Assembly: GCA_945869505.1 (NCBI GenBank)
Contig: CAMBOZ010000072.1
Span: 1-6,151, forward strand
Direction: 5' to 3'
DNA: 6,151 bases
Source of the DNA: Bifidobacterium breve
Lineage (GTDB): Bacteria > Actinomycetota > Actinomycetes > Nanopelagicales > Nanopelagicaceae
Under the pieces are notes generated by a model that searched no databases, had not been told where the DNA came from, and worked only from the letters and a program-made list of their open reading frames with translations. Made by a program: the position numbers and the translations under genes. This document shows positions 1,481 to 4,183 of this stretch, piece by piece (the stretch's first letter is position 1; each line of letters begins with the position of its first letter).

Positions 1481-1494
1481 GGATAACTTTATCC
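1481..1494. promoter_or_regulatory. Perfect inverted repeat with divergent -10 hexamers
   Basis: GGATAA-CT-TTATCC is a perfect 6-base inverted repeat with a 2-base centre, and it abuts the SOS box, sharing base 1494. It contains a TANNNT hexamer on both strands: TAAAGT on the minus strand (1491-1486, towards recA) and TAACTT on the plus strand (1484-1489, towards yaaA). It could therefore be a symmetrical bidirectional -10 region or a second operator. No convincing -35 is seen at standard spacing on either side. The inverted repeat is plain in the sequence; the function is inferred. Confidence 0.45.
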
Positions 1495-1507
1495 GAACAT
1501 CTGTTCG
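1494..1507. promoter_or_regulatory. LexA binding site (SOS box)
   Basis: CGAACATCTGTTCG has perfect 6-base arms CGAACA and TGTTCG. It fits the actinobacterial and Gram-positive LexA consensus CGAAC-N4-GTTCG, and flanking bases extend it towards TCGAAC-N4-GTTCGA. It lies about 166 bases upstream of the recA start and about 124 bases upstream of the yaaA start. LexA bound here would cover the predicted start of transcription of the NDp-type promoter, and would sit just upstream of the TAAAGT -10 towards recA. LexA-repressed recA is the standard arrangement; whether yaaA is also repressed is inferred from position. Confidence 0.85.
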
Positions 1508-1508
1508 A

Positions 1509-1531
1509 AAGGTAGCAGGCTGGACCGACAA
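1509..1531 (-). promoter_or_regulatory. RecA-NDp-type (ClgR-dependent, LexA-independent) recA promoter
   Basis: On the minus strand TTGTCGGTC (1531-1523) is followed by exactly 8 bases and then TACCTT (1514-1509). This fits the mycobacterial RecA-NDp promoter motif TTGTCRGTG-N8-TANNNT at all but the last base of the first block. In mycobacteria this motif drives DNA-damage-inducible genes, recA included, independently of RecA and LexA, and is bound by the ClgR/ClpR-like regulator. A clgR gene lies at 3393-3659 in this window. Transcription would begin near 1502, inside the SOS box. The TTGTC is also the edge of repeat unit 1, so its conservation as a promoter needs testing. Confidence 0.6.
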
Positions 1532-1615
1532 CGCCTTTAGGCGTGTCGCGAAGAAAGGGACAACGCCTTTAGGCGTGTCGCGAAGAAAGGGACATAAGCC
1601 TTTATGCGTGTCGCG
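1527..1615. repeat. Tandem 32-base repeat, two identical copies plus a diverged partial third
   Basis: Units at 1527-1558 and 1559-1590 are identical over 32 bases; a diverged copy covers 1591-1615 and its tail merges into the yaaA ribosome binding site. Each unit contains an inverted repeat. In units 1 and 2 it is CGCC-TTTA-GGCG, extended by outer GAC/GTC pairing past a bulged A to an 8-base-pair stem. In unit 3 the stem is CATAA-GCCT-TTATG, so the bases differ but a hairpin remains. Each unit then has GTGTCGCG, and units 1 and 2 end in AAGAAAGG, which resembles an actinobacterial Shine-Dalgarno. The array lies in the presumed yaaA leader, and its left edge overlaps the NDp-type promoter of recA. 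It could be a leader RNA structure, a protein-binding array or a dispersed extragenic palindrome. Confidence 0.85.
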
Positions 1616-1630: not shown

Positions 1631-2185
1631 GTGTTGATCCTGCTCCCGCCTTCTGAGAAGAAGCATCCCACCGAGAAGCCAACGCCTGCGATCAACGTTT
1701 ACACGGGGGTTCTCTACCAGGCACTTGATTGGGCGAGCCTTTCTGTCGCTGCCAAGAAGCGGGGAGCGAGCGCCGTTGTGATCATCTCCGCGAAGTACGG
1801 GGCGGTTCGCACCGATCAGCTAATTGAGAGCTACAAGGAAAAAATCGATACCAGCGCAATGCGTGCTCCGGTATCTGCAGTTTTAGACCCAATCAAGACC
1901 CCGCTAATCGTAGATTGCCGATCATCAACCTATAAATCGGTTTGGCACTCCCCCGTGGAAAAGACGGTTGAAGTTCGCGTCTCAACTGTGGTCGATGGAG
2001 TCCGCACCGTGGTGACGCATATGTCAAAGAAGACGCGCGGTGAGATTACGAGATGGCTTCTGCAATCACGTTCTATGCCCAAGACCCCCGAAGACTTGTA
2101 TGCAATCGTCTCGGAAAAATATCCTTGCGCGCTTACCCCAAGTGATGGCGTTGCGCCTTGGGCGCTCGAAGTTATAGCAGTTTAA
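1631..2185 (+). CDS. yaaA: YaaA-family (DUF328/UPF0246) peroxide stress protein, short form
   Basis: YaaA proteins are cytoplasmic and DNA-binding. In E. coli YaaA is induced by peroxide through OxyR and limits iron-driven oxidative DNA damage. Family hallmarks seen here, numbered from the GTG start, are LILLPPSEKK (2-11), YTGVLYQALDW (about 20-30), VVIISAKYGAVR followed by YKEKI, VDCRSSTYKSVW, HMSKKTRGEITRWLL and the closing ALTPSDGVAPW segment. At 184 residues it is clearly shorter than the usual 240-260. The missing part appears to be the block normally found between the PPSE motif and YTGVLY. The reading frame could begin at ATG 1604 (193 residues), but the GTG at 1631 has a better ribosome binding site and gives the normal family N-terminus. 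It is the only plus-strand gene, divergent from recA across a shared control region with an SOS box, and its stop is 14 bases from the convergent tspO stop. Confidence 0.85.
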   Translation: MLILLPPSEKKHPTEKPTPAINVYTGVLYQALDWASLSVAAKKRGASAVVIISAKYGAVRTDQLIESYKEKIDTSAMRAPVSAVLDPIKTPLIVDCRSSTYKSVWHSPVEKTVEVRVSTVVDGVRTVVTHMSKKTRGEITRWLLQSRSMPKTPEDLYAIVSEKYPCALTPSDGVAPWALEVIAV

Positions 2186-2881: not shown

Positions 2882-3430
2882 TTAAAAGAGGGTGCGATCG
2901 ACAAGAAGTTCGGCTTGTTCGCGTGATTGTTTTGCACTTAGCGGCTGCATTACCTGTCCAATTAGCCAGCGCATGGCAACGCCAGTTCCGGCCTCGGATT
3001 TGGTAGCGCCGTACAAACAACGGGCAATTTCGAGATAAAGCGGATGGTCAGCGTGGGCAAGAGAGCTAGTCAGTGCGCCTTGATCGTGTATGCGCATTGC
3101 AGCCAGAGCGGCATCGGAGGAAATATAGATTGAGAGTTTTTCCAGGGCATCGGCTGGCGTTCCAGCTTTATTGGCTAACTCAATCATGTATTCCACCTCT
3201 GCCGTAATCAAGGCAGATATCACAGCGCTCTTATCGCGATAATGGTTATATAAAGTTGCGCGAGATACTTCAGATGCATCCGCGATTTCAATCATCGAAA
3301 TGTTAGATAAACCAGATTGGGAAATTAAAGTTTTTGTTCCCTCGAGAATTGCGCTCTCTGTTCGGCGATGAGTCGCGCCTTGAGTTGCGTACTTAGGCTG
3401 CGTCGACAACGGACAACTTCGCGCTCTCAA
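2882..3430 (-). CDS. TetR-family transcriptional regulator
   Basis: The N-terminal DNA-binding domain is typical of TetR: a helix with [19 protein letters not shown], then the helix-turn-helix at about residues 44-66 ([24 protein letters not shown]) and the usual S-A-V-I-S-A-L-I continuation. The C-terminal ligand and dimerisation half (about 75-182) is not recognisable, so the inducer and target are unknown. No ATG precedes the domain. The possible starts are TTG at 3430 (182 residues, used here) and TTG at 3409 (175 residues), neither with a good ribosome binding site. Both overlap the 3' end of clgR, by 38 and 17 bases, which suggests translational coupling. Being sandwiched between clgR and DUF3046, it may regulate this operon or tspO, but that is only positional inference. 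Confidence 0.88.
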
Positions 3431-3659
3431 GAACTTTTAGTTCAGTTGAGACGTTTGCGATCACTGTAGAAAGTGTTAAGCCAAGTGCTTCGCAGATTGC
3501 ATTAAGTAGTTCAGATGAAGCTTCTTTTTGGCCACGTTCTACTTCTGAGAGATAACCAAGCGAGACGCGCGCTTCACGAGCGACATCGCGCAGTGTGCGA
3601 GATTGCTCAGCGCGGGCAGCGCGAAGAGTCTGGCCAACTGCGGTGCGTAACAAAGCCAT
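3393..3659 (-). CDS. clgR: ClgR-type XRE-family transcriptional activator
   Basis: ClgR activates clp protease and stress genes in actinobacteria, and in mycobacteria a ClgR/ClpR-like protein also drives LexA-independent DNA-damage promoters. The sequence matches closely: [19 protein letters not shown], then [40 protein letters not shown], an XRE helix-turn-helix at about residues 22-46. At 88 residues it is shorter than the mycobacterial and streptomycete proteins (about 110 or more); the linker after the domain is reduced. It ends in VVDAA; in Streptomyces a C-terminal Ala-Ala marks ClgR for ClpP-dependent degradation. Two starts are possible. ATG 3668 overlaps the cinA stop as ATGA but has its AGAAAGG directly adjacent. 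ATG 3659 has that same Shine-Dalgarno nine bases upstream and gives the family N-terminus, so it is chosen. Confidence 0.93.
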
Positions 3660-3664
3660 AGTGG

Positions 3665-4183
3665 TCATCCTTTCTGCTGCGTCGAGGCGCTGGTGTCTCG
3701 TTGCCTAAGGATACGCGCAAATGAGGCGATCGCGCTTGCTACCGTGGCGTTTCGCACGACTTCACGGTCACCAGAGAGTGAAAGTTCAATCACCTGCACC
3801 GTTGGGCCAACAAATGCGACGAAGACTCGGCCGGCGTCTGAACCATCAGATGGGCCTGGGCCGGCGACTCCAGTAGTTGCAATCGCCCAAGTGGAACCGA
3901 AAGATTTATTTGCACCATGCGCCATTTCAATGGCAACTTCTTCGCTGACCACTGAATGTTCTGCAATTGCTGATTTTGAGACGCTTAAGTGAGCGATTTT
4001 TACATCTGGTCTGTAGGCAGTTATCGAACCCAGGAAAACATCAGATGCACCAGGAACAATAGTTAAAGCGTTACTTAGCCCACCAGCAGTCAGTGATTCT
4101 GCGGTAGAAAGAGTCTCGCCCCTGGCGCGCAAAGAATCATGGATATCGGAAATTAATCCGATGATCTCGTTTGCTAGCGCCAT
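3665..4183 (-). CDS. pncC: CinA/PncC-type nicotinamide-nucleotide amidohydrolase
   Basis: This is the CinA C-terminal domain as a stand-alone protein of 172 residues. Characterised members deamidate nicotinamide mononucleotide to nicotinate mononucleotide, recycling the pyridine by-product of NAD-dependent enzymes such as DNA ligase. The active-site motif TAESLTAGG (28-35) supplies Ser30. Tyr57 and Lys62 in ITAYRPDVK match the Tyr and Lys near the catalytic Ser in the E. coli enzyme. The TTGVAGP loop is at 103-109. The extra N-terminal domain of longer CinA proteins is absent, as is usual for actinobacterial copies next to pgsA. The ATG at 4183 has an AGGA seven bases upstream that overlaps the pgsA stop. 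The 3' end overlaps the upstream clgR ATG as ATGA. The older name, competence-damage inducible protein, comes from Streptococcus and need not apply. Confidence 0.93.

Follow-up and report, generated by a model that had tools for sequence, protein, structure and literature searches.

A putative PafBC-type promoter stacked on a LexA box, and a structured leader RNA, upstream of recA in Nanopelagicales-type bacteria

How are two DNA-damage inputs combined at recA when their sites lie one on the other? The question is raised by a stretch of 6,151 nt, analysed here at its full length and termed the window, in which recA occupies positions 246–1328 of the minus strand (GTG start; TIGR02012, 574.3 bits). 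The nearest recA relatives found belong to Candidatus Planktophila and other actinobacterial genomes, with RecA identities of 82–93% (L001–L013). We take the order of the compared relatives to be the one named Nanopelagicales. Lake bacteria of this type are among the most abundant in fresh water. The majority of the titled loci come from metagenome bins or single cells, and a literature search for Planktophila with recA and LexA found nothing; a further search gave a single paper, on Pelagibacter.

PafBC and LexA have so far been regarded as the two arms of the actinobacterial response to damage, converging on some genes. In the accessible parts of the cited papers, PafBC is the factor acting at the RecA-NDp-type motif (PMC8223512, PMC6789036, PMC11804915), and several genes that bear both this motif and an SOS box are under both branches (PMC8223512). 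Since such dual-regulated genes are already published, co-regulation as such is known, and a fixed overlap of the two sites is the variant considered here. Mycobacterial recA resembles the window in having both inputs, the same −26/−10 motif and an SOS box upstream of the gene (PMC5656591, PMC8223512). In that organism group, however, P1 (PafBC) and P2 (LexA) are separately mutable promoters, and P1 is described, in the text accessible to us, as LexA-independent, whereas in the window the PafBC-type start would fall inside the box.

Promoter, LexA box and second −10 upstream of recA

Read on the recA strand, the control region consists of TTGTCGGTC, 8 nt, TACCTT, a single T and CGAACAGATGTTCG. 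The first part of this arrangement, found by motif scan, is a PafBC-type (RecA-NDp) promoter at 1509–1531 of the minus strand, with TTGTCGGTC as the −26 element and TACCTT as the −10, in a spacing that is kept in relatives. As a whole, TTGTCGGTCCAGCCTGCTACCTT has 0 mismatches to TTGTCNGT-N9-TANNNT; against the consensus TTGTCRGTG-N8-TANNNT, all bases of the −26 element match except the ninth, C for G (GTG to GTC), and the spacing is exact. The LexA (SOS) box CGAACATCTGTTCG, at 1494–1507, was found by scan with 0 mismatches, matches CGAACNNNNGTTCG exactly and lies upstream of an SOS gene, recA. The position of the −10 implies a start near 1502, which the box covers. An earlier note on this DNA had claimed a TTGTC-type element-N8-TACCTT on the minus strand with a LexA box directly after it, over the start of transcription; both are present, the box being perfect, one base on, and over the expected start.

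Shuffles of the window gave a promoter-like match (≤1 mismatch) in 46/200 cases and a box-like match (≤2 mismatches) in 119/200. The in-window scans are thus non-significant at the mismatch levels used; from the window alone the stack could be chance, and it is the comparative evidence that decides. We scanned 116 loci (the window, L001–L012, L146–L228 and L269–L288). Three were duplicates and 9 yielded no row, 7 because they are not recA loci and two (L177, L286) because they lie at a contig edge; this left 104 distinct recA upstream rows, window included. Rows were admitted only with a LexA box as well as the leader (see below); the box is therefore present in all 104 by selection, and L013, which lacks the leader, stands outside them. 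In the alignment of recA upstream regions, which the earlier note had proposed as a check, the TTGTC-N8-TANNNT-type spacing, scored as TGTC-N12-TANNNT ending one base before the box (hereafter the stack), is kept in 46/104 rows and absent from 58. RecA protein alone led to 12 of the rows, 5 of which are stacked. Since this pattern itself defined a stacked row, TGTC and TANNNT do not vary among the 46. The letters after TGTC were not selected: RG follows in 45 rows, with T next in 37 and G after it in 38, and spacer position −13 is nearly random. The rows are related, and their counts are not independent events. The clade of each row was judged by sequence, not from a tree, and 'Planktophila-like clade' denotes the rows with the stack.

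Across the order, the pattern TGTC-N12-TANNNT-N-CGAAC-N4-GTTCG gave 133 matches in 91/111 genomes, and the reversed pattern gave 0 in all 111. On these counts, chance does not account for the exact combination at its fixed spacing. Forty-two of the 133 stacks lie at recA, in 41 genomes, as assigned by hand from their position next to leader hits. In 13 genomes, the promoter motif alone (TTGTCRGT-N9-TANNNT) matched 22 times and its reversed form 14 times; on its own, as these scans indicate, the NDp motif is a weak genome-wide signal with a high background.

Past the box lies a second, P2-like −10, TAAAGT (1486–1491, minus strand), from which a start would be expected near 1479. A TANNNT starts 0–2 nt past the LexA box in 104/104 recA rows, so that one LexA box spans the upstream start and sits just upstream of the downstream −10.

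Farther from recA, the GGCGTGTC element (1540–1547, plus strand; GACACGCC on the recA strand) also stands upstream of the gene in relatives. GACAC, in the reversed orientation, is found upstream in 44/46 stacked rows, and GYGTGTY, in the forward orientation, in 55 of the 58 rows that lack the stack. Genome-wide, among nine genomes searched, GGCGTGTC was not enriched over its reversed form in the seven that belong to the group. In the window, the GGCGTGTC palindrome is carried by a 32-nt unit present three times in tandem (two copies identical, the third 66% like) at 1527–1623 between recA and yaaA; two such units are present in L190, and one or part of one in L179, L181, L185 and L272. The yaaA gene (1631–2185, plus strand; Pfam match) is short. 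Its 184-aa product has a Pfam match that starts at profile position 71 despite the presence of the N-terminal LILLPPSEKK, which suggests an internal deletion. Also encoded in the window are tspO, a DUF3046 gene, a TetR regulator, cinA, pgsA and rimO.

A structured leader and the fate of the gene-proximal promoter

Conserved blocks between the LexA box and the start codon were seen in 13/14 of the loci first compared, the exception being L013. They belong to a conserved structured leader RNA (model R1), recognised by covariation and located in the window at 1390–1478 of the minus strand (80.3 bits; core hairpin ~1397–1472). Its fold comprises CCAGA-GCGG ... CCGU-ACCU-UCUGG, an inner stem and a variable terminal hairpin.

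Two alignments bear on this fold. In A2, which is fitted to the model and has 98 distinct rows, 88.3% of cells pair, compared to 78.2% in shuffled and 34–48% in slid controls. The covariation score is 0.243 versus 0.086, a value reached by 0/500 shuffles. Weaker measures are the number of double-change pairs (13 versus 10.5; 11/500) and of further pair types (44 versus 38.4; 3/500). Eight of the 22 pairs are invariant, and one outer pair is A-U in 84 rows, U-A in 10 and C-G in 4. RNAalifold kept 13 pairs on A2, with a small covariation term of −0.68 kcal/mol. A1, a MAFFT alignment, gave the same picture (87.0% paired, score 0.211), but most of its rows had been retrieved by a set 3′ pattern, TACCTTCWGGRCC, so that part of one strand is frozen. 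A2 includes 20 additional covariance-model rows, some with a CCCGA/UCGGG outer stem, as well as L217, whose short 5′ end kept it out of A1; 7/96 TACCTTCWGGRCC matches were dropped as not lying upstream of recA, and so were 10 duplicate leaders. By single-sequence folding, some members reach significance while others do not (z of −2.5 for the window, −4.2 for L010, −3.4 for L006, −1.7 for L271, −1.0 for L009 and −0.9 for L183). As judged from the aligned rows, the element is a covarying conserved structure in the 5′ leader.

The covariance model matches 101/111 genomes of the order, as a single copy in 100. In the class sample, 17/197 genomes match, namely 16 order members and L268; the match in L268, which is outside the order, lies inside open reading frames and was rejected as a chance hit. 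With its covarying hairpin and conserved internal loop before one gene, the element resembles structured 5′ leaders of the riboswitch or attenuator-like kind, but it differs from the known ones in that none of the 4227 Rfam models matches the window at E ≤ 1 in a scan of the window. No recA leader RNA of this group was seen among the papers listed in searches of a mostly open-access literature.

The hairpin could be only a 5′ stabiliser or a DNA-level structure, without any regulatory role. In 72/104 rows it starts 12–14 nt beyond the P2 −10, which would place it close to the 5′ terminus of a P2 transcript, and by eye no U-run terminator follows it and it falls short of the ribosome site, all of which would suit such a role; in the other 32 rows the distance is 28–57 nt. 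Unpaired stretches are conserved too, however: the unpaired TACCTTC is present in 12/12 leader-bearing loci found by RecA protein alone (in pattern-found rows it is fixed by selection), and the internal loop is largely conserved. We therefore treat a purely structural hairpin as a serious alternative, while leaning against it.

The 3′ side of the hairpin also contains a possible relic of the gene-proximal PafBC promoter P1, CGTCGTTG-N8-TACCTT, at 1401–1422 of the minus strand. This side keeps the spacing of a PafBC promoter (CGTCRKTG-N8-TACCTT), and in 11/13 of the leader-bearing loci first compared the relic lies 73–120 nt past the start of the box, L002 and L004 being the two in which it was not seen. 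L013, without a leader, has TGTCAGTG-N8-TACCGT at the same place. Outside the order, TGTCRG-N10-TANNNT was found upstream of recA in 31 of 32 loci examined (out of 67), at 38–169 nt from the first RecA residue in the match (not necessarily the start codon), and the position of the relic resembles that of this real motif. A LexA box lies upstream of the motif in 6 of these loci, at a gap of 80–116 nt. We abandoned the notion of a still active P1, since TGTC is found at the relic in 0/98 leaders, with CGTC in 80; compared with the mycobacterial gene-proximal P1, the order has thus lost TGTC at that site in 98/98 leaders.

The hairpin sits at the place of the gene-proximal PafBC-type promoter of other actinobacteria, which it appears to have replaced. 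We infer that the old P1 became part of the RNA element and that the PafBC input reappeared upstream, on the LexA box, in one clade. A wider reading would join these steps: a leader RNA of an as yet undescribed class, restricted to Nanopelagicales, would control RecA post-transcriptionally, having arisen on and replaced the ancestral PafBC P1, and in the Planktophila-like clade the PafBC input would have moved upstream under a LexA veto, giving recA three stacked controls (PafBC activation, LexA veto and the RNA element, which would respond to a signal of its own). As a whole, this scenario is offered tentatively, and we would sooner doubt it than rely on it. Should the leader work as a switch, it would represent a new point at which RecA is controlled post-transcriptionally.

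Gate logic and the candidate activator

We consider it likely that the stack is a PafBC-dependent damage promoter whose start lies inside a LexA operator, with the binding events, the starts and the logic all read from sequence. In such a scheme, single-stranded DNA would activate PafBC, and housekeeping RNA polymerase would then use the −26/−10 pair; the same signal, acting via RecA filaments, would make LexA cleave itself and leave. LexA could veto PafBC here because the box covers the start, and it most likely vetoes both recA starts. The logic at recA would then be 'not LexA', followed by P2 output plus PafBC-driven output, and both transcripts would begin with, or near, the conserved hairpin.

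The earlier note had read the stack as an AND gate. A LexA box over a PafBC-type start is in keeping with that idea, but a pure AND is doubtful at recA: as a second −10 follows the box in all 104 rows, release of LexA alone should give some transcript. This layout shares with the RecA-NDp/PafBC regulon (sigma adaptation) the TGTCRG motif, an identical distance from TGTC to TANNNT and a PafC-type domain in relatives. That regulon is described as LexA/RecA-independent, whereas here a LexA box covers the expected start at both recA and the dnaE2-type genes considered below, and LexA independence is therefore not expected. With the SOS (LexA) regulon it shares the CGAACNNNNGTTCG box and a lexA gene in relatives (one checked), and it differs in that the box is stacked on an activator-dependent promoter.

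Ninety-one of the stacks do not lie at recA. Of these, we examined 44: 41 precede a DnaE-type gene (by eye), 2 precede another ORF and 1 lies at a contig end. One DnaE at a stack, cut by the end of its stretch, scored 428.6 bits with the error-prone and 429.8 bits with the replicative model. Two DnaE genes are present in each of 6 genomes checked, and in the four that bear a stack it is located at the second, lower-scoring copy, for which reason we call the gene dnaE2-type; G021 and G037 have no stack, yet the second copy is present. TTGC occurs a few bases ahead of TGTC in 45/52 distinct dnaE2-type stacks, compared to 0/46 recA stacks. TANNNT lies within 0–5 nt of the box in only 2/52. Given that the second −10 is mostly missing, the dnaE2-type gene offers the cleaner AND-like case, and its promoter, as predicted, would come close to a true AND gate. 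In the accessible text of PMC8151990, dnaE2 of M. tuberculosis shows a clear RecA dependency and is still induced with both pathways tuned down. The dnaE2-type stack is mostly found ~240–380 nt before the apparent start of the gene (L289–L331), which suggests a long 5′ leader there too. In G049 and G111 (L306, L317, L318 and L319), a further stack lies ~1.9 kb upstream of another, before an unrelated ORF of ~205 aa.

These stacks also bear on the possibility that the TGTC/−10 pair is unused at recA. Transcription would then come from the downstream −10 only, under LexA control, and the upstream motif would be either a leftover or a portion of the GGCGTGTC element. The downstream −10 is indeed present in 104/104 rows and the stack in 46, and the forward GYGTGTY of nearly all the others would be compatible with such an element. 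Yet the unselected letters after TGTC stay near consensus next to an almost random spacer position, and the identical stack and spacing recur before DnaE-type genes, mostly without a second −10. An unused pair is thus unlikely, in our estimation. Points against a PafBC-dependent promoter include the 58/104 recA rows that lack the stack though nearly all searched genomes have PafC, the high background of the NDp motif and the GTC of the window's −26 element. A LexA veto over PafBC, if it operates at recA and at a dnaE2-type polymerase gene, would merge two parallel inputs in a single gated response, and the gated layout makes such a veto testable on natural promoters.

As to the activator, the accessible portions of the literature trace a shift in assignment from ClgR to PafBC: without pafBC, induction of recA P1 is blocked, the PafBC motif resembles RecA-NDp, the HTH of PafB contacts the −26 motif, and single-stranded DNA activates PafBC (PMC5656591, PMC8223512, PMC6789036, PMC11804915). 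HTH_PafC was found in 107/111 relatives; the same model also hits 5/14 control genomes, 3 of them above the cut-off. In four loci examined (L083, L084, L086 and L089), pafB and pafC lie side by side, one pair being confirmed by family, and PafB of that pair matches the PafBC structures 9fnd, 7p5x and 6sj9 with E ≤ 3e-40. PafBC of the window's own genome is assumed from these relatives. In the same four loci, the gene pair is flanked by a methyltransferase-like gene (trmI by eye) and a tatC-like gene, and no pup or proteasome gene was noticed between these neighbours (3.3-kb stretches, ORFs of at least 150 aa).

The earlier note had named ClgR as the activator and had pointed to its gene in the same window. 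A clgR-like XRE regulator gene is indeed there (3393–3668, minus strand); its NF041677 score, 109.4 bits, does not reach the curated cut-off of 170. A ClgR-like gene was also found in 106/111 relatives, none above the curated cut-off; as the Corynebacterium glutamicum control falls below it as well, sub-threshold scores say little. PafC and ClgR are both near-universal in the order, and gene presence therefore does not choose between them. Outside the order, 61 loci extend at least 4.2 kb upstream; the window's ClgR, used as query, matched in 10 of them and in none of the other 51, mostly Streptomyces. On this comparison, having a ClgR gene close to recA does not set the window apart. The ClgR operator is given, in the accessible text, as CGC-N5-GCG, with a longer form MGCYNNNRGCG (WNNWMGCYNNNRGCGWWS) (PMC3613350, PMC2905415). 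Neither form occurs on either strand of 1330–1631, the recA control region. The tandem repeats do contain a palindrome, ACGCCTTTAGGCGT, but we discounted it as a ClgR box, its form being CGC-N6-GCG rather than N5. With PafBC as the published factor for the motif and the ClgR box absent, the claim for ClgR is left unsupported. That ClgR activates at TTGTC-N8-TANNNT, as a 2011 mycobacterial study proposed (via PMC5656591, whose accessible text has ClgR recognising the recA P1 region, a clgR mutant impaired in induction, and both factors possibly acting there), is very improbable even with a ClgR-like protein encoded so widely, given that later papers, in their accessible parts, assign the motif to PafBC (PMC8223512, PMC6789036, PMC11804915) and that the near-miss palindrome is present in few of the rows inspected.

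Stacks outside the order

In the class as a whole, the stack, searched with a pattern one base shorter, occurs in 54/296 genomes, 24 of which, by our count, are order members, and the reversed pattern in 0. None of 20 class-wide stack loci examined by eye lies at recA. By these sequence searches, the stack is thus a recurrent actinobacterial layout, seen at recA only in this order among the loci examined. Many of the stacks in these loci (L332–L351) precede DUF222- or DUF4262-like genes in other Actinomycetia, one of each having been checked with Pfam. In several of the lexA intergenic regions inspected (L136, L137, L139, L142, L145, L128 and L116), lexA is divergent from a LysM/YneA-like gene, a pairing for which one lexA and one LysM gene were checked. 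By eye, the same regions have an NDp-type motif that points away from lexA and lies beside one or two LexA boxes.
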